Source: a virus. Taken from it: a stretch of 64,000 nucleotides of DNA. The notes beneath the pieces were generated by a model, which saw only the letters and a list, made by a program, of their open reading frames with translations, was not told the origin of the DNA and made no database searches. Positions 1 to 46,396 of this stretch are shown in pieces. The stretch's first letter is position 1; each line of letters starts with the position of its first letter. The stretch is from positions 62,001 through 126,000 of IMG/VR virus record IMGVR_UViG_3300045972_000138, one strand, 5' to 3'. A program made the translations under genes and the position numbers.

Positions 1-1
1 C

Positions 2-364
2 AAAGGCCTATGTAATGTAAGTGAAGTATGGGGTACAGAAGTTATGTTGTACTCTAAAGAACTATATGCAGGAACAACTGACTTAGTCGGACTACATAAC
101 GGTGTACCTGCGATTATGGACTTTAAAAATAGCCTAAAAGAGAAGAAAAAAGAGTGGATCGAGGACTATTTTATGCAGCTGGCAGCATACGCATTATCAC
201 ACAACGAAATGTATGGCACACATATACAGAAGGGTGTAATTATGATGGCCTGCCGTACTGGTAAATATCTTGAATTTGTTATCGAAGGTGATGAGTTTAC
301 TCATTACGAAACTATGTGGGCAAATAAGGTCTGCGAATATTATAATAAATTTGGCCTAGAATAA
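2..364 (+). CDS. PD-(D/E)XK exonuclease, C-terminal part (5' end outside window)
   Basis: The reading frame is open from the first bases of the window, so this is the C-terminal ~120 residues of a longer protein. The visible part has the layout of a Cas4/RecB/MGME1-type nuclease: a GTTDLVG segment supplying the first acidic metal ligand, then MDFKNS (the D-x-K pair), then a QLAAYA helix that stacks behind the active site. Proteins of this kind in T4-like and cyanophage genomes are annotated as genome-maintenance exonucleases and act on DNA ends in recombination or host DNA turnover. The next gene follows after 14 nt with an SD (agagaggtaatt). The family call is firm; substrate and polarity cannot be read. 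Confidence 0.72.
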   Translation, partial: KGLCNVSEVWGTEVMLYSKELYAGTTDLVGLHNGVPAIMDFKNSLKEKKKEWIEDYFMQLAAYALSHNEMYGTHIQKGVIMMACRTGKYLEFVIEGDEFTHYETMWANKVCEYYNKFGLE

Positions 365-378
365 TTAGAGAGGTAATT

Positions 379-816
379 ATGAGTTGGAACAACACACCCG
401 ACCACGAGCGTCTTGCTATGTGGAAAAAATTAAGAAAAGACATATCTGACTTGCCGCTAAATGAGAAATTAGAAACAGTGGCAAAGTTTTTCTCAGTCAT
501 GCCATTTGGTTCTCGTACACTCGATTACTATACACCCGAAAATTGGCCAACACCCTGGGAAATTATATTCCACGGCCATCTATGCAAGAGTTCTATTAGC
601 CTATTAATTTTCCAAACATTCAGTCTGTTGCATACCGACGATGTGCTTGAATTAATACTCATTGACGACGGCGAAGATGAATATTTATTACCGGTGGTTT
701 CTAATACGTTTGTACTAAACTATGAACTAGGCAAGGTAAATAACTTGCAAGACATAACAGCTGAATTGCAGATTTTAAACACGTACACACAGAAAGATAT
801 AAAGGCAATCTCGTAA
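379..816 (+). CDS. Hypothetical protein, 145 aa
   Basis: A soluble protein with a basic N-terminal helix region, several Trp residues (WNNTPDHERLAMWKK, PENWPTPWE) and an acidic DDGEDEY patch near residue 95. It follows the exonuclease with a good SD (AGAGAGGT) and probably shares its transcript. I do not recognise a domain. No signal peptide or membrane segment. Confidence 0.75.
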   Translation: MSWNNTPDHERLAMWKKLRKDISDLPLNEKLETVAKFFSVMPFGSRTLDYYTPENWPTPWEIIFHGHLCKSSISLLIFQTFSLLHTDDVLELILIDDGEDEYLLPVVSNTFVLNYELGKVNNLQDITAELQILNTYTQKDIKAIS

Positions 817-857
817 TTTACACCACGTTATGAAAACTACAACCACCTTCAAAATAT

Positions 858-886
858 TTGACATTCGTTAAATATCCCATTCAACT
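858..886 (+). promoter_or_regulatory. Sigma70-like promoter before the RNR gene
   Basis: TTGACA (858-863), 17 nt, then TCAACT (881-886). The -10 is weak against TATAAT but differs by one base from TAAACT, a -10 variant that recurs in this window after TTGAC(A/T) with the same spacing. It lies in the 94-nt gap before the RNR start. Confidence 0.5.
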
Positions 887-909
887 ACTATTAGGTAAAC
901 TATACACAT

Positions 910-2808
910 ATGAATAATAACATCTATGAAACATTTATAGCCAAATCGCGCTATGCTCGATACATTGATTCCGAGAAAAGGCGCGAAAATTGGGGCGAAA
1001 CTGTTTCGCGCTATTTTGATTTTATGGCAAAACACCTGCAGACAAAGCAAAATTACACACTATCTGCTGATTTACGTAAAGAATTGCAAGATGCAATAAC
1101 AAATTTTGAAGTAATGCCATCGATGCGTGCGTTAATGACTGCAGGCAAGGCATTAGATCGCGATAATACAGCAGGTTACAACTGTTCATATCTTCCAGTT
1201 GATGATCCTAAGTGTTTCGATGAAGCAATGTTCATTTTACTTAATGGTACAGGTGTTGGATTTTCTGTTGAGCGTCAATATATTGTTAAATTACCAGATG
1301 TGCCTGAAAAGATTTTTGACAGTGAGTCAACAATTGTAGTATCTGATAGCAAGGAAGGATGGTCCAAGGCTGTTAGACAGGTTATCGCAATGTTATATTC
1401 TGGTGAAGCACCTAAGTGGGATGTAAGCAAGGTTCGTCCAGCTGGCGCACGCCTTAAAGTATTTGGCGGCCGAGCATCTGGACCAGCACCGCTTGTTGAT
1501 TTGTTTAAGTTTCTTGTTAAGTTATTCAAGAATGCTCAAGGTCGCAAATTAAACAGTATCGAATGTCACGATATTATGTGTAAAATTGGTGAAGTTGTAG
1601 TTGTTGGTGGTGTTCGCCGTTCTGCTATGATCTCCTTGTCAAACCTGTCTGATGATCGTATGCGTCACGCTAAATCCGGTGCTTGGTGGGAAACACAAGG
1701 ACAACGTGCATTAGCAAATAATAGCGCCTGCTATACAGAGCGTCCAGACGTTGGTATCTTTATGCAAGAATGGCAATCGCTATACGAATCTAAATCTGGC
1801 GAACGCGGCATCTTTAATCGTGAAGCAGCGAAGAACATTGTTAAGCTAAACGGTCGTCGTAATCCAGAATTCGAATTTGGTACTAATCCTTGCTCCGAAA
1901 TTATTCTAAGACCGTTCCAGTTCTGTAATTTGACAGAAATTATTGTCCGTGCAGAAGATACAATTGAAGATATTCAGCGTAAGGCTCGTATTGCATCTAT
2001 TTTAGGTACTATGCAGTCAACGTTGACACATTTTCCATACTTGCGTAAGATTTGGAAGGACAATACAGAAGCAGAACGCCTATTAGGTGTGTCAATGACT
2101 GGTGTATTGGACCACGCATTATTGAATAATGCAGATGATCCTGAATTAGCAGGTAGATTAGAATCTATTAAGAAGGTAGCAGTCGATGTAAATGCAGAGT
2201 TTGCAGAAGCTTTTGGAATCCCAGCGTCTACTGCCATTACATGTAATAAACCATCTGGTACAGTATCTCAACTAACAGATACAGCATCGGGTATTCATCC
2301 TCGTCACGCTGCATATTACTATCGCCGTGTCCGTAGCGATTTGAAAGATCCTCTAACACACGCAATGATTGCAGCAGGTGTTCCTAACGAACCCGATGTT
2401 ACAAAACCAGGTAGTACAGTTGTGTTTACATTCCCGAAGAAGGCCCCTGAAGGTGCGCTTTTACGTGCTAATTTAGACGCAATTTCGCACTTAAAATTAT
2501 GGTTAGCTTATCAGCGCCATTACTGCGAGCACAAGCCATCTGTTACTATCTCTGTAGAAGAAAAAGAGTGGCCAGCAGTAGGTGCATTTGTTTGGGACCA
2601 CTTTGACGAGATGTCTGGTGTGTCATTCCTACCATACGATGGTGGTTCATACAAGCAAGCACCATATGAAGATTGTACAAAGGCACAATACGACGAATTA
2701 TTGGCAAGTATGCCTTTAGAAATTAATTGGGATGCCATTGTAGAGATGGAAGATAATGTAGAAGGTGCTCAAATGTTGGCCTGCACCGCCGGTAACTGTG
2801 AAATTTAA
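910..2808 (+). CDS. nrdJ: Adenosylcobalamin-dependent (class II) ribonucleotide reductase
   Basis: Reduces ribonucleotides to deoxyribonucleotides for phage DNA synthesis using coenzyme B12, without oxygen or a second subunit. At 632 aa it is shorter than Lactobacillus leichmannii RTPR (about 740). All five cysteines are visible: C92 (NCSYLP), C328-x-E330 (NPCSEI) and C339 (FCNLTE), with the same 11-residue 408/419 spacing as RTPR, plus the C-terminal shuttle pair C625-x4-C630. NKPSGTVSQL and a GGVRRSAMIS segment are also typical. A glutaredoxin gene follows after 8 nt and is the likely reductant of the C-terminal pair. The host must supply or import B12. Whether the substrate is NDP or NTP is not certain; the CxxxxC tail favours the monomeric triphosphate type. 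Confidence 0.93.
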   Translation: MNNNIYETFIAKSRYARYIDSEKRRENWGETVSRYFDFMAKHLQTKQNYTLSADLRKELQDAITNFEVMPSMRALMTAGKALDRDNTAGYNCSYLPVDDPKCFDEAMFILLNGTGVGFSVERQYIVKLPDVPEKIFDSESTIVVSDSKEGWSKAVRQVIAMLYSGEAPKWDVSKVRPAGARLKVFGGRASGPAPLVDLFKFLVKLFKNAQGRKLNSIECHDIMCKIGEVVVVGGVRRSAMISLSNLSDDRMRHAKSGAWWETQGQRALANNSACYTERPDVGIFMQEWQSLYESKSGERGIFNREAAKNIVKLNGRRNPEFEFGTNPCSEIILRPFQFCNLTEIIVRAEDTIEDIQRKARIASILGTMQSTLTHFPYLRKIWKDNTEAERLLGVSMTGVLDHALLNNADDPELAGRLESIKKVAVDVNAEFAEAFGIPASTAITCNKPSGTVSQLTDTASGIHPRHAAYYYRRVRSDLKDPLTHAMIAAGVPNEPDVTKPGSTVVFTFPKKAPEGALLRANLDAISHLKLWLAYQRHYCEHKPSVTISVEEKEWPAVGAFVWDHFDEMSGVSFLPYDGGSYKQAPYEDCTKAQYDELLASMPLEINWDAIVEMEDNVEGAQMLACTAGNCEI

Positions 2809-2816
2809 GGAAATAT

Positions 2817-3080
2817 ATGATAACAATTTATTCGAAACCGAGTTGCACATTTTGCGACCAAGCGAAGGCGCTATTAGATTCAAGAGGTGTTGAATTTAAA
2901 GAATTAATACTCGATGTTGGTCAAGAGCAAGATCCTGCTAAGACATATGTGTCTGTTGCATCGCTAAAAGAAAAAGTACCGACAGCAAGAACAGTGCCGC
3001 AAATATTCAAAGGCGATTATCACATTGGCGGATATACCGAATTAAGACAATTTTTAGAATCACAACTACTAAACGCATAG
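2817..3080 (+). CDS. grx: Glutaredoxin
   Basis: An 87-aa dithiol glutaredoxin with CTFC at residues 10-13, the cis-Pro TVPQIF segment and a GGYTEL glutathione-binding turn. It lies 8 nt after the class II RNR, so it most likely re-reduces the RNR C-terminal cysteine pair. The length is typical for the family. Start ATG follows AAGGAAATAT. Confidence 0.92.
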   Translation: MITIYSKPSCTFCDQAKALLDSRGVEFKELILDVGQEQDPAKTYVSVASLKEKVPTARTVPQIFKGDYHIGGYTELRQFLESQLLNA

Positions 3081-3087
3081 GAAAATA

Positions 3088-3393
3088 ATGCTATTACAAA
3101 AACAAGACACAGTACCGTACATTGGTATATTTAAATTAAATAGCGGCGAGGAATTTATTGGTAAAGTTGTGTTAGAATCTGACACAATGTATACTATCTC
3201 TAAGCCGTTATGTATGGTGGGCACAGATAAGGGCTTCCAGTTCGCACCATTTATTATGATGGGAGATATGGATGCCGATGTTAAATTGCCTAAACCTGTA
3301 ATACAGACAAAACCAAATGGTAAGATTTTAGAACAATATGAAGCAGCAACATCGCCTATCGCGATGCCTAAGAAAAGTTCAATCATCGTATAG
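3088..3393 (+). CDS. Hypothetical protein with LSm-like N-terminal half
   Basis: 101 aa. Residues 8-45 (YIGIFKLNSGEEFIGKVV, then DTMYTISKPLCM) have the alternating beta-strand look of an Sm/LSm fold, a pattern I have seen in small conserved proteins of T4-like marine phages. The C-terminal half is Pro/Lys-rich and probably flexible. It directly follows glutaredoxin (7 nt) and shares its transcript. RNA binding is only a guess from the fold. Confidence 0.65.
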   Translation: MLLQKQDTVPYIGIFKLNSGEEFIGKVVLESDTMYTISKPLCMVGTDKGFQFAPFIMMGDMDADVKLPKPVIQTKPNGKILEQYEAATSPIAMPKKSSIIV

Positions 3394-6151: not shown

Positions 6152-6490
6152 ATGCCTTGCAGAGACTACTACGACGATCATCCCGAAGCATACTTCAAAG
6201 ATATCAAAGAACCCGCGTTGAAGAAGCAAATTGCATTTGCAGAATCCGCACTGTGCCAAACACTTGCTGCATTGGAAATTGCACATACAGATATGGCAAG
6301 TCCCGCAGAATTTTACGACCTAATTAACTTTAAAGAAGCAGGTATTACAAAGGTGGAACTAAAGAAATGGCATAAGGAACATAAGGTACTTGATGCTAAA
6401 CACCGCAAAGAAGAATCTGAAAAGAATCTACGTGCAACTGCACTTGCAAAATTAACAGCCGAAGAACGTAAAGCATTGGGAGTAAAATAA
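6152..6490 (+). CDS. Hypothetical helical protein, 112 aa
   Basis: All-helical, charged protein. It starts MPCRDYYDDHPEAYFKDI and ends with Lys/Glu-rich helices (KWHKEHKVLDAKHRKEESEKN). The stop overlaps the ATG of the NadM-Nudix gene by one base, so the two are translationally coupled. No recognised domain. Confidence 0.7.
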   Translation: MPCRDYYDDHPEAYFKDIKEPALKKQIAFAESALCQTLAALEIAHTDMASPAEFYDLINFKEAGITKVELKKWHKEHKVLDAKHRKEESEKNLRATALAKLTAEERKALGVK

Positions 6491-7518
6491 TGTCTGATAA
6501 GAAATATGATACACTGGTTTTGATTGGGCGTTTTCAACCATTCCATACTGCTCACTTGTTGTTAGTCCAACGTGCAACCGCACTTGCTAACAAGGTTGTA
6601 TTTATTGTGGGCTCGGCCAATCAGCCGCGCACCTACAAAAATCCATTTACGTTCGAAGAACGCAGAATTATGATTTACGAAGCTACTCGCGGTATGGCTG
6701 GCCCACTTAGCTTTTATATCGAGCCAAATCCGGATAGTTTATACAACGATCAGGCGTGGGCTGTGCGTGTGCAGGCACTTGTAGGAAAACACACTAAACC
6801 CGGCGATAAGGTTGGCATTATTGGGCATAAGAAAGATCCTTCCAGTTTTTACTTGGATATGTTCCCTCAGTGGGGATTCGAGTCTGTGGAACTTCTTGAA
6901 CCATTGGATGCATCTGAGATCCGTGATTTGTACTTCAAGCGCGACATTAATATGAAATTTATTAAGCATGTTGTACCACCAACTACATATGACTTTCTTG
7001 ATGCATTTGCAGACGGTCCAGCACACGAACAAATTATCAAAGAACGCGAATTTGTGGCAAACTACAAGAAGCAATATGCGTCATTGCCGTATCCGCCAAT
7101 CTTTAGCACCGCTGACGCTGTGGTTATTTGCAGTGGTCACGTGTTGATGGTGAAGCGCCGTGCAGAACCCGGCAAGGGGTTGTGGGCATTGCCCGGTGGA
7201 TATGTAAATGCAAACACTGATCGCACCGTAGAGGATGCAATGCTACGCGAACTGCGCGAAGAGACACTAATTAAGGTGCCTGCACCAGTATTACGTGGTA
7301 GCATTGTACGTAGCAAGGTGTTTGATGCAATTGATCGTAGCCCACGTGGTCGTATTATCACTCACGCATTCTTTATTAAGTTACCCGATGGTGAACTGCC
7401 AAAAGTAAAAGGTGCAGACGATGCCGAAAAAGCAAAGTGGGTACCTATTGCAAGCGTAAAGAGTGATGAATGCTTTGAAGATCACTTCGAAATTTTGCAA
7501 CACTTTTTAGGAGCATAA
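6490..7518 (+). CDS. nadM: Bifunctional NMN adenylyltransferase / Nudix hydrolase
   Basis: N-terminal nucleotidyltransferase domain with GRFQPFHTAH (residues 13-22), which binds ATP and joins it to NMN to give NAD. The C-terminal Nudix domain has a GGYVNANTDRTVEDAM stretch followed by RELREET, the Nudix box with the extended loop seen in NadM-Nudix proteins; this domain usually acts on ADP-ribose or related compounds. The 342-aa length fits the family. Together with the nicotinamide phosphoribosyltransferase at 8130 it gives a complete nicotinamide-to-NAD route, a pair known from phages such as KVP40 and linked to recovery from NAD-depleting defences. It overlaps the preceding gene by 1 nt, and its LGA tail encodes the next SD. 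Confidence 0.93.
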   Translation: MSDKKYDTLVLIGRFQPFHTAHLLLVQRATALANKVVFIVGSANQPRTYKNPFTFEERRIMIYEATRGMAGPLSFYIEPNPDSLYNDQAWAVRVQALVGKHTKPGDKVGIIGHKKDPSSFYLDMFPQWGFESVELLEPLDASEIRDLYFKRDINMKFIKHVVPPTTYDFLDAFADGPAHEQIIKEREFVANYKKQYASLPYPPIFSTADAVVICSGHVLMVKRRAEPGKGLWALPGGYVNANTDRTVEDAMLRELREETLIKVPAPVLRGSIVRSKVFDAIDRSPRGRIITHAFFIKLPDGELPKVKGADDAEKAKWVPIASVKSDECFEDHFEILQHFLGA

Positions 7519-8129: not shown

Positions 8130-9560
8130 ATGAAAAACTCAATTATACTCGATACTGACAGCTACAAGGTCAGTATGTGGAAACAATACCCAGCAGGAAC
8201 TGAATATGTCTATTCTTACATCGAATCTCGTGGTGGAAAATACACTACAACAGAATTTCTCGGGGTACAGGCTCTTGCACGGTATCTTGCGACGCCGATC
8301 ACACAAGAACAAATTGATTATGCAGAAAAAATCTGGACTGCTCACGGAGAGCCTTTCAACCGCGAAGGTTGGCAATACATCCTTGATCAACATGAAGGCA
8401 AGCTTCCTCTCCGGATTTGCGCCGCCAAGGAAGGCCTTATTATTCCGACTAAAAACGTCCTCTGCACAATCGAAAATACAGATCCAAAATGCTTCTGGCT
8501 TACAACTTGGGTGGAAACAGCGGCGCTACGTGCAATCTGGTATCCTACCACTGTCGGAACTACTTCGTGGCACATTAAGCAAGAAATTCTGAACTACTTG
8601 GAGAAGAGCGGTGACCCCACTACTATTGGTTTTAAGCTTCACGATTTTGGTGCCCGCGGCGTTTCTAGCCTGGAGAGCGCTGGTATCGGGGGAGCAGCTC
8701 ACCTCGTCAATTTTATGGGTACTGACACTATGTCTGGTGTGCTCCATGTTATTGATGTATATGGCGGCGATGTTTGCGGATTCAGTATCCCAGCCGCAGA
8801 ACACAGCACCATCACAAGTTGGGGCCGAGACAACGAAGTAGACGCTTACCGCAATATGGTTAAGCAGTTTGGCGGCGATGGCAAGATTGTTGCTGTGGTC
8901 TCTGACTCGTACGACATTTACAAAGCCTGCGAAATGTGGGGAACGGAACTAAAAGATGATGTTATCAATTCTGGGGCTACTGTCGTCATCCGCCCTGACT
9001 CTGGCGACCCTGTGGTGGTTGTACCAAAAATGCTTCGCATACTGGCTGAACGTTTTGGGTTCACAGTCAATGCCAAGGGTTACAAGGTCCTTAATAATGT
9101 TCGCGTTATCTGGGGTGATGGTATTAATAGCGTTAGCCTGGGTAGCATTCTTCGGTGTGTTGTTGATGTTGCCGGCTTTTCTGCCGATAACATAGCATTT
9201 GGTATGGGTGGTGGACTGCTTCAACAATGCGATCGTGACACATTGAAGTTTGCTATGAAGTGTTCTTCGGTCGGTGTGCGCGAGATGGTATCAATTCCAG
9301 AATTGTCTACAGACAAGATGGAACTTGTATGGCGCGATGTGTTTAAAGATCCGGCAACTGATCCAGGCAAGGCTTCTAAGAAGGGCCGTGTTACATTGTG
9401 GGAAAGCGGTGGCGAGTATGAGACTGCGGTTTATCCTCTTACCCGTTGGACCGACAAAGGTACTGATGGTTGGAAGGAAGTATTGGAAACATACTTCTTG
9501 GATGGTGAAGTACAATTTACACAGACTTTTGACCAAGTACGAGCAAATAGTATGCTATAA
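8130..9560 (+). CDS. nadV: Nicotinamide phosphoribosyltransferase
   Basis: Converts nicotinamide and PRPP into NMN. The 476-aa length matches NAMPT/NadV. Visible motifs are SYKVSMWKQYP at the N-terminus, LHDFGARGVSS (~170-180), GTDTMSGV, PAAEHST with the phospho-accepting His225, and RPDSGDP for phosphoribosyl binding. With the NadM-Nudix enzyme encoded 600 nt upstream it forms the two-step salvage route that lets a phage rebuild NAD from the nicotinamide released by NAD-cleaving defence enzymes. The SD AAAGGAAC precedes the ATG. It has its own promoter, so it can be expressed apart from the upstream block. Confidence 0.94.
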   Translation: MKNSIILDTDSYKVSMWKQYPAGTEYVYSYIESRGGKYTTTEFLGVQALARYLATPITQEQIDYAEKIWTAHGEPFNREGWQYILDQHEGKLPLRICAAKEGLIIPTKNVLCTIENTDPKCFWLTTWVETAALRAIWYPTTVGTTSWHIKQEILNYLEKSGDPTTIGFKLHDFGARGVSSLESAGIGGAAHLVNFMGTDTMSGVLHVIDVYGGDVCGFSIPAAEHSTITSWGRDNEVDAYRNMVKQFGGDGKIVAVVSDSYDIYKACEMWGTELKDDVINSGATVVIRPDSGDPVVVVPKMLRILAERFGFTVNAKGYKVLNNVRVIWGDGINSVSLGSILRCVVDVAGFSADNIAFGMGGGLLQQCDRDTLKFAMKCSSVGVREMVSIPELSTDKMELVWRDVFKDPATDPGKASKKGRVTLWESGGEYETAVYPLTRWTDKGTDGWKEVLETYFLDGEVQFTQTFDQVRANSML

Positions 9561-9598: not shown

Positions 9599-9606
9599 GA
9601 TAAATA
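9599..9606 (+). promoter_or_regulatory. T4-late-like promoter octamer before PrkA
   Basis: GATAAATA. In T4 the late octamer TATAAATA occupies -13 to -6, so transcription would start near 9612 and give a ~30-nt leader with the SD TTAGGAGC before the PrkA ATG. No sigma70-like -35/-10 pair is seen here, which suggests that the kinase operon is late. Confidence 0.6.
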
Positions 9607-9641: not shown

Positions 9642-11582
9642 ATGGCTGACCTTTTTAAAATGCTTGCAGACGAGAAGAAGAATTTACGTCAAGAGACATA
9701 CTCGATTCAAGAGTATCTCGAGGCGTGTAAATCTGATCAACTACTATATGCCAGTTCGGCAGAGAGGATGTTAAAAGCAATTGGTGAGCCTGAGCTTGTC
9801 AATACGCACAAAGACGCACGTCTAAGCAGAATTTTCCACAACAGAACAATTAAGCGTTATCCGGCATTCCACGATTTTTACGGAATGGAAGATGCAGTTG
9901 AACGTATTGTAGGATACTTTACCCACGCTGCACAAGGCCTAGAAGAAAAGAAACAAATTCTTTATCTTTTGGGACCAGTTGGCGGCGGCAAGAGTTCTAT
10001 TGCAGAACGCCTTAAAGAATTAATCCAAAAGTTTCCAATTTATGTGCTTGCAGATAAAGACGGAAATCTTAGTCCTGTTTTTGAATCTCCATTAAACTTA
10101 TTCGGCAAAGACCAGTACGGCGCTGTACTTGAAAAAGAATATGGCATTCACAAACGTTATCTTTCCGATGTATTAAGCCCGTGGGCAATTAAGCGCCTAA
10201 AAGAATACGGTAACGATAAGACTAAATTTAAAGTTGTAAGAGTGTATCCAAGCAAGTTGGAACAAATTGGTGTTATCAAAACCGAACCAGGCGATGATAA
10301 TAATCAAGACATTAGCAACTTAGTTGGTAAAACCAATATTCGTATGTTGGAACACTTTGACCAAAACGATCCAGATAGCTACTCATTCTCCGGTGCTTTG
10401 TGCCGCGGCAATCAGGGTATTATGGAATTCGTGGAAATGTTCAAGGCTCCTATCAAAATGTTACACCCGTTGCTTACAGCAACACAGGAAGGTAACTACG
10501 TTGGTACAGAAGGTATTAGTGCTATTCCTTTCAACGGTACAGTACTTGCTCACAGCAATGAAAGCGAATGGCAGACATTTAAGAATAACAAGAATAATGA
10601 AGCTTTCATTGATCGCGTTTATGTTGTTAAGGTTCCATATTGCTTACGTATTACTGACGAGAAGAATATTTACTCTAAAATGCTAGAATCGTCTAGCTTA
10701 GGCAATGCACCGTGTGCAGCAGAGACATTGGATATTTTGTCCAAATTCTGCGTATTAACACGCCTACAAGAGCATGAGAACTCAAACGCCTTCAGCAAGA
10801 TGCGTGTGTACGATGGTGAAGCGATTAAAGATACAGATCCTAAAGCAAAGAGTCTGCAGGAATATCGTGATGCAGCAGGTGTAGATGAAGGTATGTCAGG
10901 TATTAGTACACGTTTTGCATTTAAGATTCTTTCTAAGACATTTAACTTTGATTCAGCAGAAATTGCAGCCGATCCAGTGCACCTAATGTTTGTATTGGAA
11001 GAAGCAATTAAGCAAGAACAGTTTGGCGAAGAAAAGCAAACAAAGTATATGAACTTTATCAAAGAATACTTAGCACCCAAGTATGCAGAACAGTTAAGTA
11101 ACGAAATTCAGAAAGCGTACTTAGAAAGCTACAGCGATTATGGTCAAAACTTGTTTGATCGTTATGTCGAATACGCCGATGCGTGGATACAGGAAATTGA
11201 TTACAAAGATCCAGATACTGGTAATTTATTTGATCGCGCAGTTCTTAATAAGGAACTTGAAAAGATCGAAAAGCCGGCAGGCATTGCCAATCCTAAGGAC
11301 TTCCGCAACGAAGTTGTTAACTTTGTATTGCGTGCCCGTGCTAAACATCCAGAGGGTGGTGTAAAATGGACATCTTACGAAAAACTACGCGAAGTAATTG
11401 AACGCAAGATGTTTGCAAGCACAGAAGAATTACTTCCTATTATTAGCTTTGGCGCTAAGAGCAAAGAAGATGATCAAAAGAAACACGACGAATTTGTTAA
11501 GAGGATGATGTCCAAAGGATATACTGCTATGCAAGTCAAGCGACTTGTTGAATGGCATATGAGAACTGCAAAGAGTTCCTAA
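9642..11582 (+). CDS. prkA: PrkA-family serine protein kinase (YeaG-like)
   Basis: 646 aa, the usual PrkA length. The N-terminal AAA+ module has Walker A GPVGGGKS at residues ~111-118; the C-terminal half carries the PrkA kinase-like region. In bacteria PrkA/YeaG works with YeaH and SpoVR/YcgB in stationary-phase, nitrogen-starvation or sporulation-linked stress responses, and has been described as kinase and/or protease. Here the same three genes follow in the same order with 1-11 nt overlaps, so the phage carries the whole trio. It is preceded by a late octamer. Whether it modifies host or virion proteins is unknown. Confidence 0.92.
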   Translation: MADLFKMLADEKKNLRQETYSIQEYLEACKSDQLLYASSAERMLKAIGEPELVNTHKDARLSRIFHNRTIKRYPAFHDFYGMEDAVERIVGYFTHAAQGLEEKKQILYLLGPVGGGKSSIAERLKELIQKFPIYVLADKDGNLSPVFESPLNLFGKDQYGAVLEKEYGIHKRYLSDVLSPWAIKRLKEYGNDKTKFKVVRVYPSKLEQIGVIKTEPGDDNNQDISNLVGKTNIRMLEHFDQNDPDSYSFSGALCRGNQGIMEFVEMFKAPIKMLHPLLTATQEGNYVGTEGISAIPFNGTVLAHSNESEWQTFKNNKNNEAFIDRVYVVKVPYCLRITDEKNIYSKMLESSSLGNAPCAAETLDILSKFCVLTRLQEHENSNAFSKMRVYDGEAIKDTDPKAKSLQEYRDAAGVDEGMSGISTRFAFKILSKTFNFDSAEIAADPVHLMFVLEEAIKQEQFGEEKQTKYMNFIKEYLAPKYAEQLSNEIQKAYLESYSDYGQNLFDRYVEYADAWIQEIDYKDPDTGNLFDRAVLNKELEKIEKPAGIANPKDFRNEVVNFVLRARAKHPEGGVKWTSYEKLREVIERKMFASTEELLPIISFGAKSKEDDQKKHDEFVKRMMSKGYTAMQVKRLVEWHMRTAKSS

Positions 11583-12856
11583 TGTCCGATTATACAATCA
11601 TCGACAGGAGAGTAAATCCTAAGGGTAAAAATCTCTCCAATAGACAACGATTCCTTGAACGTACAAAGCAGTGGGTAAAGCAAAAGGTACGTGAGAAAAG
11701 TGTGAATAGAGATATTACATCTACAGATGGTGAAAATATCTCTATTTCAAAAGATGATATTGCCGAACCACAATTTGACTACGATAGACAAAAGGGTGTA
11801 TGGGATCGTGTTTTACCTGGTAACAAGGAATTTGTCCCTGGCGACAAAATCAAGAGAGAACAGGGCGGCCAGGGTAAGGGTAAGGATGCAAGCGATCAGG
11901 GAGAAGGTACTGACGATTTTGTATTCACTATTTCAAAAGAAGAATATTTAGATATTCTATTTGAGAATTTAGAGTTACCCGATCTTATAAAGCAAAGTGA
12001 AGATGCAGCAGTCGCATTTGCTAGAAAGCGTACAGGTTTTTCAACATCCGGCAGTCCAAACAACCTAGATTTAGTAAGGAGTCTTAAGAACTCTTTAGGG
12101 CGCAGAATTGCATTAGGTCTTCCGTTAGATAAAAGAATAAAAGAAAACGAAGAATTGCTACTCACAGCAACAGAAGATGAAAAAGTTGTATTACTTGAAG
12201 AAATACAACGATTGCGTACACGCCGTGCAGCGGTAGCATATATTGATCAGGTTGATGTAAGATATAAGCGTCATTCGCAAACGCCACTTCCAAATAGTCA
12301 GGCGGTTGTATTCTGTCTCATGGATGTTTCCGGTAGTATGGGCAAAGACGAAAAAGATACAGCGAAACGATTCTTTTTATTATTGTACCTATTCCTACAA
12401 AGAAAATATTTAAAAGTAGATATTGTATTTGTACGACATACAACCGTTGCATCCGAATGTTCTGAACACGAGTTCTTTTATGGACAGGAAAGTGGTGGTA
12501 CAATTGTCAGTACCGGTGTAAAGGAAGTTAACAACATTGTTAGGGAAAGATATCCACTAGATTCCTGGAATGTTTATGTAGTGCAGGCATCTGATGGTGA
12601 TAATGTTGATAGCGATAGCAAGGCACTTACAGAAGAAGTAGAAAACTTATTACCAAAGTGCCAGTATTATGTCTATGATGAAGTATTACAGAAGAATACA
12701 TACCGCAGTGCAGGACATACAACAACTGTTTTAAGTGTTATGAAAGAGTTATCGGACCATAATGAAAATCTTGCAATAACATCAACCGACTCAGTAGAAA
12801 GCGTGCTTACAGCATTTAGAGAGATTTTTACAAAAAAGGCAAATAATGGCAAATAA
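11582..12856 (+). CDS. yeaH: YeaH/YhbH family (DUF444) protein with von Willebrand A-like domain
   Basis: Start ATG at 11582 overlaps the PrkA stop by one base; an in-frame start 30 nt further up would lie inside PrkA and has no SD. 424 aa. The N-terminal 100 residues are charged and Gly/Gln-rich, typical of DUF444. FCLMDVSGSMG gives a MIDAS-type metal site (D248, S250, S252) followed by a vWA-like fold (VVQASDGDN further on). In bacteria this protein is the constant partner of PrkA. Its last codons overlap the SpoVR start by 11 nt. Confidence 0.9.
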   Translation: MSDYTIIDRRVNPKGKNLSNRQRFLERTKQWVKQKVREKSVNRDITSTDGENISISKDDIAEPQFDYDRQKGVWDRVLPGNKEFVPGDKIKREQGGQGKGKDASDQGEGTDDFVFTISKEEYLDILFENLELPDLIKQSEDAAVAFARKRTGFSTSGSPNNLDLVRSLKNSLGRRIALGLPLDKRIKENEELLLTATEDEKVVLLEEIQRLRTRRAAVAYIDQVDVRYKRHSQTPLPNSQAVVFCLMDVSGSMGKDEKDTAKRFFLLLYLFLQRKYLKVDIVFVRHTTVASECSEHEFFYGQESGGTIVSTGVKEVNNIVRERYPLDSWNVYVVQASDGDNVDSDSKALTEEVENLLPKCQYYVYDEVLQKNTYRSAGHTTTVLSVMKELSDHNENLAITSTDSVESVLTAFREIFTKKANNGK

Positions 12857-14315
12857 GCACCTATTCGAAGGTTCGGAGTGGGATTTTAGTTTAGTAGATG
12901 CAGCAATGAAAGAATTTGATCTAATTGCACCAGAATTAAAACTAGACATATACCCTAATCAACTTGAAGTTATAACAAGCGAACAAATGCTTGATGCATA
13001 TGCAAGCGTTGGCCTACCTGTAATGTATAAGCATTGGAGTTTTGGTAAGCAATTCTCTAGAGAAAGCGATAATTACAAAAAGGGTAAATCGGGATTGGCA
13101 TACGAGATGGTGCTTAACACTAATCCTTGTATCAATTTCTTAATGGAAGAAAATACAGCAACTACGCAGGTACTTGTACTTGCACATGCTGCCTACGGAC
13201 ATAATCACGTATTCAAAAATAACTATATGTTCAAGCAATGGACAGATGCAGGTAGCATTGTAGATTATCTTATTTTTGCAAGAAACTTTATAACAGAGTG
13301 CGAAGAGAAGTATGGATTTAAGGAAGTTGAAAAGACTTTAGATGCTGCTCATGCTCTTATGAATTTTGGTGTGGATAGATATAATAGACCAGCCAAGCTT
13401 AGTTTTGCTAAGGAACACGAGAAGTCTGAAGAGCGTAAGAAATATTTGCAAGAGCAAGTAAATGAACTTTGGAGAACAGTTCCTGCAGGAAAGGCTAAAC
13501 CAGAAGAACCTAAGAAGTTTCTTAAAGAACCAGAAGAGAATATACTTTATTTCCTGGAAAAGAAATCTCCAAAGCTAGAAGTATGGCAGCGCGAAATATT
13601 ACGCATTGTCCGTAAGGTAGCACAATACTTCGAACCACAGCGTTGCACTAAAGTTCTTAACGAAGGTTGGGCAAGTTTTACACATTATTATATGATGAAT
13701 AGATTGCACGACAAAGGTTTGTTATCTGATGGCTCTATGTTAGAATTCTTTGCATTGCATAGCAATGTGCTATATCAACCGGAATTTGATAGTAAATACT
13801 ACAGCGGATTTAACCCTTATTACCTAGGATTTAACATCTTCTCTGAGATTAGACGTGTGTGCGAGAAGCCTACAGCAGAAGATGAAGAATATTTCCCGGA
13901 ATTGTGCGGAACTCCCTGGGTAGATGCGTGTATTGATGCTGTAGCTAATTACAGAGATGAAAGTTTTATTAGACAATTCTTGACACCTGCATTATGCAGA
14001 AAGATGGGATTATTCTTATTGAATGATGACAGCAAGAGTGATTACAATGTTGCTGCTATTCACGATGCATCAGGTTTCAAACGAATTAGAAAAGCATTAG
14101 CTGATCAATACCTAACTGAAAACTATATGCCTAAGATTGAAATTGTGGATGTTGATCAACACAATACTCGTAAGCTAACTTTAATGTATTACAAAAATGC
14201 TAACAAGGAACTAATGGGCAAATCTGCAAGTCGTGTATTAAGACACATCGAATATCTTTGGGGATTCACAACCGAAATGGTTGACCAAGACGGCAAACAC
14301 TACAACGTTCTGTAA
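12846..14315 (+). CDS. spoVR: SpoVR family protein (YcgB-like)
   Basis: 489 aa, the normal length for SpoVR/YcgB. Family signatures include WDFSLVDAAMKEFDLIAPELKLD, IYPNQLEVIT, MYKHWSFGKQF, MVLNTNPCINFLMEENT and HAAYGHNHVFKNN. Function is unproven even in bacteria; it is linked to cortex formation in Bacillus and to the PrkA/YeaH stress module in enterobacteria. The 11-nt overlap with YeaH shows a tightly coupled operon. It ends 1 nt before the convergent minus-strand gene. Finding all three members intact argues that the module works as a unit in the phage. Confidence 0.92.
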   Translation: MANKHLFEGSEWDFSLVDAAMKEFDLIAPELKLDIYPNQLEVITSEQMLDAYASVGLPVMYKHWSFGKQFSRESDNYKKGKSGLAYEMVLNTNPCINFLMEENTATTQVLVLAHAAYGHNHVFKNNYMFKQWTDAGSIVDYLIFARNFITECEEKYGFKEVEKTLDAAHALMNFGVDRYNRPAKLSFAKEHEKSEERKKYLQEQVNELWRTVPAGKAKPEEPKKFLKEPEENILYFLEKKSPKLEVWQREILRIVRKVAQYFEPQRCTKVLNEGWASFTHYYMMNRLHDKGLLSDGSMLEFFALHSNVLYQPEFDSKYYSGFNPYYLGFNIFSEIRRVCEKPTAEDEEYFPELCGTPWVDACIDAVANYRDESFIRQFLTPALCRKMGLFLLNDDSKSDYNVAAIHDASGFKRIRKALADQYLTENYMPKIEIVDVDQHNTRKLTLMYYKNANKELMGKSASRVLRHIEYLWGFTTEMVDQDGKHYNVL

Positions 14316-14316
14316 C

Positions 14317-15219
14317 TTATTTCTGTTTAAGTTTATCTAACATTTCTTGTGCCTTTTCAACACTAATTAGATATCTGCCTGTCCTGTTAGGATCGGCAGC
14401 TTTCTGCAAAAATTCTACACTAAGTCCCGACGTCTTTGGTCTTGACTCTGGTGCATCATTAGTTCCTGCAGGTATACCACCCGTTTCACCAGGCAAATAA
14501 TTATTTACGCCACCGCTTTGTTGCTTACGAGATTGTAATGCTGCCATTGCATCGTTTGCACTAATCATAGGCCTAGATACAGAACCATCAACTACACCTT
14601 GCAAATATTGGGTATTCATATTATCACCGGGTGCAGCTTGAGCCCCACCTGCACCTAAAGCACCTAGCCCAACCATTGCTGCACCTGCTAGGTTACTTTT
14701 CCAACCCTCTGCTACCATAGCTGCTAATCTTTCTTCATAACTTTCTGTTGTAGAATGCTTATGTGTTATCTTCATAGCCTTTTCTGCTCTACGATCGACT
14801 TTCTTTTGTGTATGTGGATTAGAATAATACTCGTCGGGCTTAACACCAGATCTATACTTATGCATTGCAGCCGCAACACTCTTTTCTGTACCAGGGCTTA
14901 ATTCGTTTAATTTCTGCTCTGAATGCTTATGTGTTATCTTCATAGCTTTTTCTGCTCTACGATCAACTTTCTTTTGCGTATGCGGATTTGAATAATACTC
15001 ATCTGGTTTAACACCGGATCTGTACTTGTGCATTGCGGCGGCAACATTCTTTTCTGTGCCTGCACTTAATTCGTTAACTTGAACTGTCTGTCCTTTCCAC
15101 TTATCGTGTACATCATTTAAAATATTTTCATAACTAACGTCTTGAGCAGGAGCGCAACGATTAAGTCCACCCATCATACCTTCGACAATTTGTTCTGCTA
15201 AGAGTTTAATGTGGTCCAT
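14317..15219 (-). CDS. Repeat-containing, probably capsid-targeted protein
   Basis: The start is ATG at 15219 with SD AAAGGA and a late octamer on the same strand (15243-15250); an upstream in-frame start would lie in the promoter. 300 aa. The N-terminus MDHIKLLAEQIVEGMMGG is an amphipathic helix with LAE and IVE, the (I/L)-x-E type of site that the T4 prohead protease cuts after a capsid-targeting sequence. It is followed by two near-identical 56-residue units (NELS-GTEK-VAAAMHKYRSG to AMKITHKHS). Next comes a small hydrophobic Ala/Gly segment (NLAGAAMVGLGALGAGGAQAAPG), then a Pro/Gly linker. No enzyme domain recognised. I infer an internal virion protein. Confidence 0.65.
   Translation of the reverse strand: MDHIKLLAEQIVEGMMGGLNRCAPAQDVSYENILNDVHDKWKGQTVQVNELSAGTEKNVAAAMHKYRSGVKPDEYYSNPHTQKKVDRRAEKAMKITHKHSEQKLNELSPGTEKSVAAAMHKYRSGVKPDEYYSNPHTQKKVDRRAEKAMKITHKHSTTESYEERLAAMVAEGWKSNLAGAAMVGLGALGAGGAQAAPGDNMNTQYLQGVVDGSVSRPMISANDAMAALQSRKQQSGGVNNYLPGETGGIPAGTNDAPESRPKTSGLSVEFLQKAADPNRTGRYLISVEKAQEMLDKLKQK
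14753..15075 (-). repeat. Tandem duplication, 168-bp period, inside the 14317-15219 gene
   Basis: Two direct copies, about 14753-14907 and 14921-15075, encode the 56-aa units. The bases differ mostly at third codon positions while the protein is nearly unchanged, so the duplication is old enough for silent drift and is kept under selection. Each unit is rich in Lys/His/Arg. Confidence 0.85.
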
Positions 15220-15242
15220 AATAAATCCTTTAATATTTCTAT

Positions 15243-15250
15243 TATTTATC
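15243..15250 (-). promoter_or_regulatory. Late octamer for the minus-strand repeat protein
   Basis: Reads GATAAATA on the minus strand (TATTTATC on plus). The predicted transcription start is near 15237, giving an ~18-nt leader with SD AAAGGA before the ATG at 15219. Confidence 0.6.
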
Positions 15251-15263
15251 AAAATATTATAGG

Positions 15264-15335
15264 TTGACTTCACAATGTAGTTTATGGTATAATAAAACGG
15301 ATAAATATATGTCCCGCTGTGAGTTTTAGGCGGGC
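15264..15335 (+). promoter_or_regulatory. Early promoter, late octamer and leader hairpin of the endolysin gene
   Basis: TTGACT (15264-15269)-N18-TATAAT (15288-15293), followed at 15300-15307 by GATAAATA, a late octamer. The leader then contains CCCGC (15313-15317) and GCGGG (15330-15334) followed by CTTTTA, a weak terminator-like stem that could attenuate early transcripts. The SD GGAGAG precedes the ATG at 15351. The dual promoters would allow low early and high late expression of the lysis enzyme. Confidence 0.6.
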
Positions 15336-15350
15336 TTTTAGGAGAGAAAG

Positions 15351-15875
15351 ATGATAACAGCAAAATTATTGCTTGTTTATCTTCTTACTTCAACCGACGT
15401 AAGTGGTTTATCCACAATTGACACATCACAAGTAGATCCGCAAGAAGCCTATTGCTTGGCGGAAAATATTTATTACGAAGCGAGAAGTGAAGATATTCAG
15501 GGACAATTTGCAGTTGCTTCTGTTACCCTTAATCGTGCGAGCAATCCACGATTTCCTAGTACTGTGTGCGGCGTAGTTAAACAGACAGCCAGGTCACGCA
15601 TTACCGACAAACTCGTATGTGCCTTTTCATGGTATTGTGACAACGAGAAGAAGGGGAGAGAAATACCTGTCAATAATAGAGACGGATCTATAAACCAACG
15701 TGTTTATGATCAGTTCCAAAGAGCCAGTATTGTAGCGATTACTATGCTTGCAGGAAACGTCAAAGATATAACCAAGGGTGCCACGCACTTTCATAATCCG
15801 TTTATAAGCGATCCTGCTTGGAAACACGAGATGGTTAAAACGATAAGTGTGGGACACCACGACTTCTATAGATAA
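15351..15875 (+). CDS. SleB-like cell-wall hydrolase (endolysin candidate)
   Basis: 174 aa with the Hydrolase_2/SleB fold: CLAENIYYEARSE (E43 is the likely catalytic Glu), GQFAVASVTLNRA, FPSTVCGVV, CAFSWYCD, GATHFHNP, and a GHHDFYR C-terminus. This family cleaves peptidoglycan glycan strands (lytic transglycosylase or amidase activity). An N-terminal hydrophobic stretch (residues 1-20, MITAKLLLVYLL) suggests export by a signal peptide or a signal-anchor-release endolysin, which would not need a holin for crossing. It has both an early and a late promoter and ends at a strong terminator. Confidence 0.85.
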   Translation: MITAKLLLVYLLTSTDVSGLSTIDTSQVDPQEAYCLAENIYYEARSEDIQGQFAVASVTLNRASNPRFPSTVCGVVKQTARSRITDKLVCAFSWYCDNEKKGREIPVNNRDGSINQRVYDQFQRASIVAITMLAGNVKDITKGATHFHNPFISDPAWKHEMVKTISVGHHDFYR

Positions 15876-26546: not shown

Positions 26547-29381
26547 ATGGATCAAAAAAGCGAGTTTAGCAAATGGATGAAGACTATAGAATCTGCCTTA
26601 TCGGGAGAAACTAAAGTCGATGAAGAGATTCTTGAACAAGGGTCGTGCGGATGCGGAGCGTGGAATTGTCCAGATTGTTTCCCAGATGATAACAACGAAT
26701 TAGGTGGCCTAGAAGGTAAGCAGATCAAGGCTACTATTGTTATTCAGCCAGAAGAAGGTGAGTTCGGTGAAGAAATGTTGCAACAGCAAGGCGACGAAAT
26801 GCAGCAGCAGCAACAACAAGCACCGCAACAACAAGGTGTTGGTATGGCAGGAACACATCCTGTCGGTCAAGGCACATTCGATCATGACGAAGAAGATGAC
26901 TTAGATGTTTCTATGCCATTGTATGGCGAAGAAGGTATCGAGGAAGAAGGCGACGATACTGATGTAGAATTAACACAACAAAAATTACCACGTGCAGAAG
27001 GTGGCGGTGTTAAGTTAGGTGACATTGTTCAGAAGTATGTTCCGTTAGATAATGAAGACGGTGAAGAATCTACATTAAGCGATGGCAGCGAGCTAGACGA
27101 AGAAGGTGAAGAAGGCAACGAATTTGCACAAGATTCTAGCGATGATGCATCCGATGTAGCTACTATGCAAAATAATAACAGCACAGGCCCTGATTTTTCG
27201 CAGGAAGATAAAGATACTCAAATCCAGCAAATTATGAATATGCAGAGTATGGGTTTCAGTAATGCCAATGCAAGATACACACCAGAACAACTCGAGATGA
27301 TGGATGATACACAATTTAAATCTGTTCATCAACAAGTTTGCGGTGGTGTTCAAGAAGCTACAATGACAGCAGCCGATGACGAAGATAGACCAAAGCCTAC
27401 AAAAACAAGAACAAAGCGCCGTGATGACTTGGATGCATTCGATGATATATTAGGTGGGGGAAATGATCAGCCACTTGATCAATATAAAGAACCAGGTCAG
27501 CAACCAGGTGCCGATGCTCCAGCAGCAGGCCGTTTACCTAATATGCGTACAGCATCCGCACATGCAACACGTAGAGCAACAGGTAATATTGGTGTAGACC
27601 AAGAAATGATGGGATGGATGAATCGCATTAATCCAAATGCAGGCGCAGGCGAACAAGATATTCCGCAAGAACCAGTAGAACCAACACAAGATGTTACTGT
27701 TCGTAATGCACAAGATGTTCCTAGTATTATTAGCAATGCTATGCAGGCAGCAGGCACAGCATCGCCAGAATGGCACACAATAAACAACTTACCAGGTTAC
27801 AATCACCGCAATGTTCGTGGTATGGGTCGTAATGTGTTTGGTATGTTTACATCTACTCCGCTAGAACAAATTAAAACTATTGCCAATGTAAATGGACAAG
27901 GCCCGAATACGGATGCAGAAATTCGCGCTGTAGCTTCTTTCCTCATTAACAATGCAGACGACTTAGGTGAAGTACATTTAAGCCACGGTGAAGCTATTCC
28001 AGGCTATGAGCCAGATGTTAAAGAATATAGTATCGACGGTGTACGTTTCCACGTTGTTAGAGACCCAATGGGGCAGTACATCTACGCATATCCAGATGCA
28101 GATGCACGCATAAATACAAACAGAGCAAGATTAGGCGGGCAAGGTGGGGAACCACAGGCCCAAGGAAGATTACCGGGCGGTCGCCCACAAATACAACGCG
28201 AAGGATCGGAAATGAAATTTAAATTATCTATAACAGAAGCAATTAAACTTGACGACATTATAAGAGAAGGTTTAAGCGATATAGCGAGAAATGTTCTTAC
28301 TGAATCAGAAATTGACGAAGCAAAAACAGGTGCTGAATATCGTGCTCACCAAGGAGATAAAAAGAAAGCAGCAATGGCAGCACGCGGCGCCGGTATGCCA
28401 CAAGGTAATTATCCTCTATCACGCAGACTAGGCACTAAGCCAGGCGGCAAAGCATTGATTACTTGGATGCACAAAGGTCACAAGTTGTCAAATGAAGCAG
28501 AGTTAGAACCTGTACCATTTGATAAAGAAATTATGAATAAGCAATTTAAGTCACACCCTGATGACTTTGTAATTGTTTCTGCATCTAACGGTGTTGCAGG
28601 TATTAAGCCTTCTAAAGAACACTATGATCAGAAGAGAAAGACACAGCCAAGTTATAGCGGTGCAAACGACTCTACTTTGCCTTACCAAATTGTTGCGTTT
28701 AAAGACAACGGTGAGCAAGTTGATCCAACATTGTTACAGCCAAGACAGCGTGGCGAAGTTGAAAAGATTAAGCAACGTATGGGTAAACTACGTGGCGCAG
28801 ATATGCAAAACGAAGATAACATTTTCAAATTGCTACAAGATCAGATCGGTACATTGCAAACTGTATGGATTTCTGGTTTTGGCGGTTTCCGCGGTGATCC
28901 AGATTCGGTAAGAGAACCAACCGGTTCTGTTGAACGTGATAAAATGGCTAAACGTGCAGACATGAAGAAAGGTCCTGCAGACTTAGATCAGAACCAAGCA
29001 TTGAAAACTGTATTTAAACGTGTACGCCCTGTTATGAAGAAATTGGCTGCTGAAGCTATGTCTATGTTAACTCGTAGCGCACAACGCAGCATGAATGGCG
29101 GCGATATGGAAACAGCACAAAAGTTAATGACTCGTGCTACAAAACTAAAACAATTTGGTGCCATATTAGATACAACAGCTGATATTAATTTAGATGGTAA
29201 CTACGGTAGCAATACACGCGACTTTACAAATCAACTTCAAAATGCATTAGCAAAATCTGCAAATACTCGAGTAGGTACACCAGAGTACAAGGAATTCTTA
29301 AATGCAGCAGCCCAAGGTAACGCAATGGCCCTTAAGCCAGTACTTGATGCACTTAGAGATAATCTTGTAGAGTTGCAATAA
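26547..29381 (+). CDS. Very large acidic, Gln-rich protein; probable virion cargo
   Basis: 944 aa. N-terminal helix SEFSKWMKTIESALSG, then EEILEQG (an I/L-x-E site) and a Cys cluster (CGCGAWNCPDC). Residues ~70-330 are low-complexity and strongly acidic with Gln runs. Around 350-530 lies a folded region with NLPGYNHRNVRGMGRNVFGMF and an HVVRDPMGQYIYAY strand pair. From residue 556 (nt 28212) a new module begins MKFKLSITEAIKLDDIIREG, with LTES, preceded in the DNA by AAGGA at SD distance; it could be an internal start or the seam of an old gene fusion. The C-terminal ~300 residues are helical and basic. No enzyme motif recognised. I infer an injected or internal head protein. Confidence 0.6.
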   Translation: MDQKSEFSKWMKTIESALSGETKVDEEILEQGSCGCGAWNCPDCFPDDNNELGGLEGKQIKATIVIQPEEGEFGEEMLQQQGDEMQQQQQQAPQQQGVGMAGTHPVGQGTFDHDEEDDLDVSMPLYGEEGIEEEGDDTDVELTQQKLPRAEGGGVKLGDIVQKYVPLDNEDGEESTLSDGSELDEEGEEGNEFAQDSSDDASDVATMQNNNSTGPDFSQEDKDTQIQQIMNMQSMGFSNANARYTPEQLEMMDDTQFKSVHQQVCGGVQEATMTAADDEDRPKPTKTRTKRRDDLDAFDDILGGGNDQPLDQYKEPGQQPGADAPAAGRLPNMRTASAHATRRATGNIGVDQEMMGWMNRINPNAGAGEQDIPQEPVEPTQDVTVRNAQDVPSIISNAMQAAGTASPEWHTINNLPGYNHRNVRGMGRNVFGMFTSTPLEQIKTIANVNGQGPNTDAEIRAVASFLINNADDLGEVHLSHGEAIPGYEPDVKEYSIDGVRFHVVRDPMGQYIYAYPDADARINTNRARLGGQGGEPQAQGRLPGGRPQIQREGSEMKFKLSITEAIKLDDIIREGLSDIARNVLTESEIDEAKTGAEYRAHQGDKKKAAMAARGAGMPQGNYPLSRRLGTKPGGKALITWMHKGHKLSNEAELEPVPFDKEIMNKQFKSHPDDFVIVSASNGVAGIKPSKEHYDQKRKTQPSYSGANDSTLPYQIVAFKDNGEQVDPTLLQPRQRGEVEKIKQRMGKLRGADMQNEDNIFKLLQDQIGTLQTVWISGFGGFRGDPDSVREPTGSVERDKMAKRADMKKGPADLDQNQALKTVFKRVRPVMKKLAAEAMSMLTRSAQRSMNGGDMETAQKLMTRATKLKQFGAILDTTADINLDGNYGSNTRDFTNQLQNALAKSANTRVGTPEYKEFLNAAAQGNAMALKPVLDALRDNLVELQ

Positions 29382-45787: not shown

Positions 45788-46396
45788 ATGTCGACAGATC
45801 TTGATAGTATTAAAAAGACTTTAGTGAGTATTTCTAAGGGTAACAATATCCTTGATACTTTGCTTGAGTTTGAGCGCACATTAGACAATGCAGAGATTTT
45901 TGCATACAAGAACTGGATTCTTGGCGAATTAGTGGAAGGTCCTATTATCAGTAGGTACTGGTATAAGACTGTATGGATGTATCCATATGCTATGATGCCC
46001 GATCCTGATGCAGGATTACGCCTAACTAAACTTGGTGCTAAAGTTAACTTTAGAAAAGGCACATTCAAGAAGCCTGTTAAAGTACACGGCCCCGAAGATT
46101 GGCAAAATCCAGAGTCTAAAAAAGCCAAAATGGCAGAACACGAAATATGGTTGGTTACTATTGACATGCCGTTAAAGTATATCAATCACGGTTTAGACGA
46201 ACTTGATGATATCATTGCACAAGACATTGAAGAAACTAATGCTGCACTTGCCGATGCGTATGAAGAAATGCCAGAGCAAGATATGGGCATGGACCAAACT
46301 GGTATGGATCAAGGCGGAATGGGCGGTGACATGGGTAGTATGGATATGTCTGGTGGAGCAGGTGGTCAAGATATGCAACAAGGTGGACCACAATGA
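45788..46396 (+). CDS. Hypothetical protein with Met/Gly/Gln-rich tail, 202 aa
   Basis: The first ~140 residues are a folded domain (NWILGELVEGPIISRYWYKTVWMYPYAMMPDPDAGLRL, then MAEHEIWLVTIDMPLKY); the last ~45 residues are a low-complexity Met-Asp-Gly-Gln tail. Late octamer upstream. It overlaps the next gene by 4 nt; the two are likely to be partners, possibly structural. No known family. Confidence 0.65.
   Translation: MSTDLDSIKKTLVSISKGNNILDTLLEFERTLDNAEIFAYKNWILGELVEGPIISRYWYKTVWMYPYAMMPDPDAGLRLTKLGAKVNFRKGTFKKPVKVHGPEDWQNPESKKAKMAEHEIWLVTIDMPLKYINHGLDELDDIIAQDIEETNAALADAYEEMPEQDMGMDQTGMDQGGMGGDMGSMDMSGGAGGQDMQQGGPQ

Follow-up and report, generated by a model that had tools for sequence, protein, structure and literature searches.

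Bacteria of many kinds encode PrkA, YeaH and SpoVR, a set whose biochemistry is poorly understood, and their occurrence side by side in a virus raises the question of whether they belong to that virus and what they could do for it. The DNA analyzed (64,000 nucleotides, hereafter the window) corresponds to positions 62001-126000 of a 237,609-base IMG/VR virus record (G000:62001-126000). The record holds one PrkA and a terminase large subunit (TerL), and because of the latter it was considered phage and not a bacterial contig; it also encodes a clamp loader, virion proteins, an endolysin, a class II RNR and ThyX. A fragment of T4-type gp23 capsid protein lies at the end of the record, which is therefore probably incomplete. 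The source of the window is a T4-like jumbo phage, and the trio is arranged in it as follows:

9642..11582, + strand: prkA (yeaG-type), 646 aa, with AAA+ domain (Pfam AAA_PrkA, 5.7e-168) and PrkA C-terminal domain (4.1e-68)
11582..12856, + strand: yeaH (DUF444), 424 aa, von Willebrand A (VWA) domain protein (Pfam, 3e-141)
12846..14315, + strand: spoVR, 489 aa (Pfam SpoVR, 2.2e-157; SpoVR_C, 3e-13)

All three genes match curated families over their full length. PrkA reached 1156 bits with NCBIfam PRK15455 (cut-off 576), SpoVR reached 735 bits with its curated family (cut-off 679), and the DUF444 match of YeaH spans profile positions 2-418 of 418 (residues 16-429 of the listed ORF). The ORF list places the yeaH start at 11552, but the gene naturally begins with the ATG at 11582, which belongs to the TAATG at the end of prkA, so the two genes overlap by 1 nt and YeaH is 424 aa long (427 aa in E. 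coli). The spoVR ATG at 12846 overlaps the 3′ end of yeaH by 11 nt. Coordinates and family profiles thus confirmed the sequence-only reading of this locus, which had described three full-length genes in the bacterial order, with 1-nt and 11-nt overlaps and an octamer upstream. The G+C content of the trio is the same as the phage's own, and phage genes stand on its flanks. A near-identity search in the phage collection gave no match. Upstream of it there are a gene for a NadM/Nudix-like cytidylyltransferase (6490-7518) and, directly adjacent, one for NadV, a nicotinamide phosphoribosyltransferase (8130-9560); in the window the trio thus has genes for NAD salvage and nucleotides as its neighbors, and no head genes.

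Concerning the residues on which activity may depend, the following motifs were located:

9972..9995, + strand: PrkA Walker A, GPVGGGKS, residues 111-118, with K117 equivalent to E. coli K116 (alignment)
10923..10925, + strand: PrkA K428, equivalent to K426 of E. coli YeaG, needed in vivo (PMC4664914)
12323..12337, + strand: YeaH MIDAS motif DVSGS (D248, S250, S252), completed by T307 at 12500 and D338 at 12593
13185..13205, + strand: SpoVR HAAYGHN motif (H114, G118, H119), putative metal or catalytic site, universal in all rows
13662..13685, + strand: SpoVR EGWASFTH motif (E273 universal, H280 invariant in A1), from the alignment

E. coli YeaG needs K116, R232 and K426 in vivo (PMC4664914), and the window PrkA retains them as K117, R234 and K428, so that the loss of PrkA catalytic residues looked for in the alignment was not what we found. 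Of the positions invariant across 40 bacterial rows, the window changed 22/307 in PrkA, 13/105 in YeaH and 18/164 in SpoVR. When distant Thermus-phage proteins were added, the Walker A of PrkA and residues H114, G118, H119 and E273 of SpoVR still came out as conserved, and the complete MIDAS of YeaH (the five residues listed) is invariant even in Thermus phages at 24–29% identity. The lysine equivalent to E. coli K426 is present in every YeaG-type row, while its position is occupied by Asp in the Thermus-type phage PrkAs, which also sit in trios. The model of YeaH has a VWA fold (Foldseek, best E 6.8e-7), with matches that include the AAA+-linked MIDAS domains of Rea1 and MDN1. No sequence match was found in the PDB for YeaH or SpoVR, nor any significant structural relative of SpoVR (best E 0.57, moderate model), so the metal site of the latter is a guess from conservation. 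Pfam assigned the window PrkA to AAA_PrkA and to no MoxR-type family at E ≤ 0.001; a published analysis assigns PrkA to AAA+ clade III and not to the MoxR clade (PMC13001217).

The co-localization of PrkA, DUF444 and SpoVR was then searched for in viral contigs. The PrkA scan gave 80 viral loci, in 65 of which the trio is complete and ordered prkA-yeaH-spoVR; nearly all the others end at a contig edge, and L069 is the one clear exception, with room available yet without spoVR. Viral spoVR loci with room upstream had prkA and yeaH in 69/69 cases, the PrkA-side and SpoVR-side sets being overlapping and inclusive of near-copies. Many trio contigs are 200–578 kb long, with TerL and gp23. In the annotated phage collection, the window-type trio was found in phages of 634, 636 and 642 kb, with spoVR distant from prkA and yeaH in the 642-kb one. 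A second, divergent type (PrkA 25–28% identical) occurs in the Thermus phages phiYS40, phiLo, MN1 and Lalka8 and in a 595-kb phage, which indicates that phages unrelated to each other benefit from the unit. The Thermus phages resemble the window in carrying the whole trio, with its motifs conserved, but differ in the gene order (VWA-SpoVR-PrkA) and in belonging to a very distant subfamily, which is most simply explained by a separate acquisition. In Lalka8 the trio has the minor head protein on one side and TerL on the other, and in phiYS40 it lies near TerL. The intact trio is thus not a rarity, as jumbo-phage contigs by the dozen, huge phages of 595–636 kb and Thermus phages all have it.

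The genes flanking the trio differ from one phage lineage to another, and no constant partner gene was found beside it outside subclades. Thirteen records with TerL 53–89% like that of the window, three of them of 338–385 kb and none of established completeness, have neither PrkA nor SpoVR, and the trio is therefore dispensable in some settings. On the other hand, L070 has a TerL only 34% identical to that of the window together with a PrkA 72% identical. The differing flanks and the trio-less TerL relatives point to an old, selected, mobile accessory cassette, which seems to pass from one T4-like jumbo phage to another, with gains and losses that come easily but involve the three genes together. 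Within the L026-L060 subclade the genes before prkA are constant (e.g., L030:7055-7900, L042:4525-6327), the first without Pfam match and the second matching DUF7217. Homing-endonuclease-like ORFs occur between prkA and yeaH in L003 (9939-10664), L004 (9936-10900) and L005 (9939-10691), and leave the order of the trio undisturbed.

As to ancestry, the identity of the window PrkA is at most 68% with bacterial PrkA (65–68%) and 63–94% with phage copies. Most phage rows group together, apart from bacteria, in the tree of each gene. The three trees, compared over 25 phage rows, share 14, 17 and 14 of 22 splits (0.2 by chance, with a maximum of 4), so that, where unrelated donors of the three genes were looked for, one shared history appeared instead. 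In the concatenated tree, 15 phage rows form one starred clade, and a single clade of all 17 was not rejected (p-AU 0.716). The rows L076, L080, L081 and LR745206 fall outside the main phage clade, and therefore more than one acquisition is possible; the expectation that phage copies form one clade held for most rows, but not for these. Considering also the Thermus type, phages appear to have acquired the whole trio at least twice. The dN/dS ratio was 0.05–0.09 in those pairs whose dS is not saturated; between the window and L002, synonymous sites are saturated. The relatives of the window trio are under strong purifying selection. Together with the retained residues and the shared history, this ratio supports the earlier claim of an intact module with a selected function, and we consider it practically certain that the phage owns a PrkA-YeaH-SpoVR module on which selection acts.

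Three phage SpoVR genes hold inserts that keep the reading frame and have the ends of inteins (Cys at the first position, Asn at the last, and Cys as the residue that follows):

L072:8124-10373: SpoVR gene with an intein of 250 aa, placed after window residue 52 (L073 seems to have this insert too)
L074:11418-13844: SpoVR gene with an intein of 320 aa, placed after window residue 116 (HAA/CGHN)
L168 (LR756504):18471-20369: SpoVR gene with an intein of 129 aa, placed after window residue 274 (NEG/CATF)

The insert of LR756504 gave 30.5 bits with the profile of the intein N-terminal region (curated cut-off 24.5), for that of L072 the match is to an intein-bearing family (2e-10), and that of L074 displays only the sequence hallmarks of inteins. 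A group I intron was considered for the split SpoVR of L074 and rejected, as there is no Rfam match and the insert is in frame and intein-like. Two of the three sites are inside the two universal motifs of SpoVR. Inteins are usually located at active sites of proteins needed by their carrier, and so these two sites point, independently, to the motifs also flagged by conservation.

The timing of expression was approached through the octamer that precedes the trio:

9599..9606, + strand: octamer GATAAATA, related as a variant to TATAAATA (late-promoter octamer of T4) and located 36 nt ahead of the prkA ATG

There are 16 copies of GATAAATA in the window versus 4.6 expected, a number reached in 0/100 shuffles, while the exact T4 octamer showed no enrichment in the window. 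It is located ≤80 nt upstream of 9/65 ORF starts of the window, and precedes virion-type genes at 45788 and 50531 and a head-decoration-like one at 59159. In the region upstream of the window it stands before the gene after TerL and before two other virion-type genes, and it is also found in front of hsp20 and SSB genes. Given its enrichment and its position before virion genes, GATAAATA looks like the late-type promoter element of this phage. Its presence before prkA, pointed out earlier as late-type, is shared with the nearest relative, L002, but similar octamers were found at only 2/27 of the other trio loci tested. An octamer before the trio was rejected as a general rule (some form of it at 3/28 other trio loci, L002 included), and late expression is therefore plausible for the lineage of the window, not for phage trios in general.

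Phages keep only what pays within an infection. The two or more apparent acquisitions of the trio, the keeping together of the partners at all loci where the surroundings can be read and the conservation of the same residues across 25% identity suggest that PrkA, YeaH and SpoVR are one machine, and those residues name targets for mutation. In nitrogen-starved E. coli, YeaG and YeaH together quiesce metabolism, acting as a ‘metabolic brake’ (PMC10954441, PMC4664914). The trio also recalls the MoxR pairs NorQ-NorD, RavA-ViaA and CbbQ-CbbO, in which an AAA+ ATPase accompanies a VWA protein with a full MIDAS, and of which NorQ-NorD drives metal insertion into its target (PMC13036017); unlike NorQ, RavA and CbbQ, PrkA is not a MoxR protein, so the likeness is in working only. 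With these precedents, we infer that the three proteins form a complex with SpoVR as client or effector, and that its timing and benefit are as proposed here. PrkA would be an ATP-driven AAA+ ring, and YeaH, a VWA protein with complete MIDAS, would be its adaptor, as NorD is for NorQ and ViaA for RavA. The two would remodel or activate SpoVR, a putative metalloprotein with HxxxGH and E motifs, which would be their natural client or effector. The trio would be made during infection, probably late in the lineage of the window, and would impose on the host, or prolong in it, a stress-like state similar to the brake of starved E. coli. A slow jumbo phage may thereby complete its cycle even when the cell is short of nutrients or collapsing. 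By analogy, an AAA+/VWA machine acting through SpoVR to impose such a state is only tentatively proposed. As a whole, a selected phage module working by this mechanism is the best explanation that we can offer, with a confidence that stays somewhat below even.

Other interpretations were weighed against this one. That the trio is recent passenger host DNA, or a bacterial contig misbinned as viral, has real precedents: Enterobacter phage LAU1 (L082, MN688132) has yeaGH annotated as phage genes at the end of the record (1-3308), but its PrkA groups in the tree with bacterial rows (enterobacteria and relatives), close to those of Vibrio, Shewanella and Photobacterium, and is therefore probably host DNA, so LAU1 was rejected as a case of phage trio; L069 and L076 look similar. 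For the window this interpretation is refuted by the trees, which place its copy inside the phage clade, and it is further countered by the phage genes around it, the G+C content and the selection acting on its relatives, so we give it almost no credit. The sequence-only reading had suggested, as one possibility, the phosphorylation of host or virion proteins by PrkA late in infection, which would leave YeaH and SpoVR as accessories. The complete C-terminal domain of PrkA and the lysine kept in every YeaG-type row agree with it, as does the loss of YeaG function in vivo in the K426A mutant (PMC4664914). Nevertheless, the serine kinase activity of bacterial PrkA is disputed: the genetic data support it (PMC4664914), but in a 2026 study purified Bacillus anthracis PrkA behaved as an AAA+ ATPase with neither kinase nor protease activity (PMC13001217). 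The Asp of the Thermus-type trios adds to this, and the constant presence of SpoVR and YeaH would be left unexplained. Kinase activity is thus doubtful, late phosphorylation is unsupported as it was stated, and a kinase-centered role seems unlikely.

A role in virion assembly or packaging, with the AAA+/VWA pair remodeling head or tail proteins as a chaperone and the bacterial stress role being incidental, would fit the occurrence of GATAAATA in front of virion genes and the location of the trio in Lalka8 and phiYS40. We judge it improbable, since close TerL relatives appear to do without the trio, since it is also found with a TerL as different as that of L070, and since in the window it does not adjoin head genes. 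Pairs that rebuild NAD+, such as NadM/Nudix-like plus NadV, are reported to counter NAD-depleting defense, and the trio could help the genes directly upstream to blunt an abortive-infection or NAD-depleting response of the host. The repression of two toxin-antitoxin modules by YeaG in starved E. coli (PMC4664914) is in line with such counter-defense; however, the NAD link is not conserved, because the flanking genes differ between lineages, and PADLOC models gave no match for PrkA, YeaH or SpoVR, so this possibility is quite improbable. A bolder version of the AAA+/VWA machine would make SpoVR its catalytic end, a metalloenzyme acting directly on host or virion components, with the inteins in HAA/xGHN and NEG/xA marking its active site. 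We give it a low but not negligible probability; if true, the phage trio would not be simply a copied stress regulator.

Returning to the proposed stress-state module, bacterial yeaG-yeaH (E. coli) and prkA-yeaH-spoVR operons (Pseudomonadota) have the same families, order and key residues as the window. In contrast, the phage copies form their own clade, among phage genes; their YeaH has only about 43% identity, and their SpoVR about 50%, with the bacterial ones, and, instead of the octamer, E. coli yeaGH is under RpoS/NtrC-type control. Phage spoVR and prkA have so far been annotated separately: in the phiYS40 record, deposited in 2006 with its trio; in Ralstonia jumbo phage RsoM2USA, with SpoVR (ORF28) and PrkA (ORF30) in different functional classes and no module described (PMC8504454); and in oxygen-minimum-zone viromes, where no other viral gene related to sporulation is as abundant as spoVR, which was read as helping spore formation, its partners not being mentioned (PMC8940887). 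In RsoM2USA one unlabelled ORF of fitting size lies between SpoVR and PrkA, and we infer that this ORF29 is YeaH. In the open-access literature we found no description of the trio as a phage module, of its phage clade, of its strict linkage or of the SpoVR inteins. Host stress modules are already known from phages as a kind, and PrkA-YeaH-SpoVR is a new, well-supported case. Giant phages that inherit the trio as a unit provide a new route to the function of these poorly understood proteins, and in a phage, a function that bacteria reveal only after long starvation can be followed in an assay that is short and yields counts.

Some other features of the window deserve mention. The large ORFs (677–992 aa) at 26547-29381, 29382-31439, 50979-53957 and 57057-59090 gave no PHROG match, and the one at 26547-29381 has the octamer GATAAATA in front. 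The ORF at 14317-15363 (- strand), opposite to the trio, contains a near-perfect internal repeat of about 50 residues (NELSPGTEKSVAAAMHKYRSGVKPDEYYSNPHTQKKVDRRAEKAMKITHKHS).
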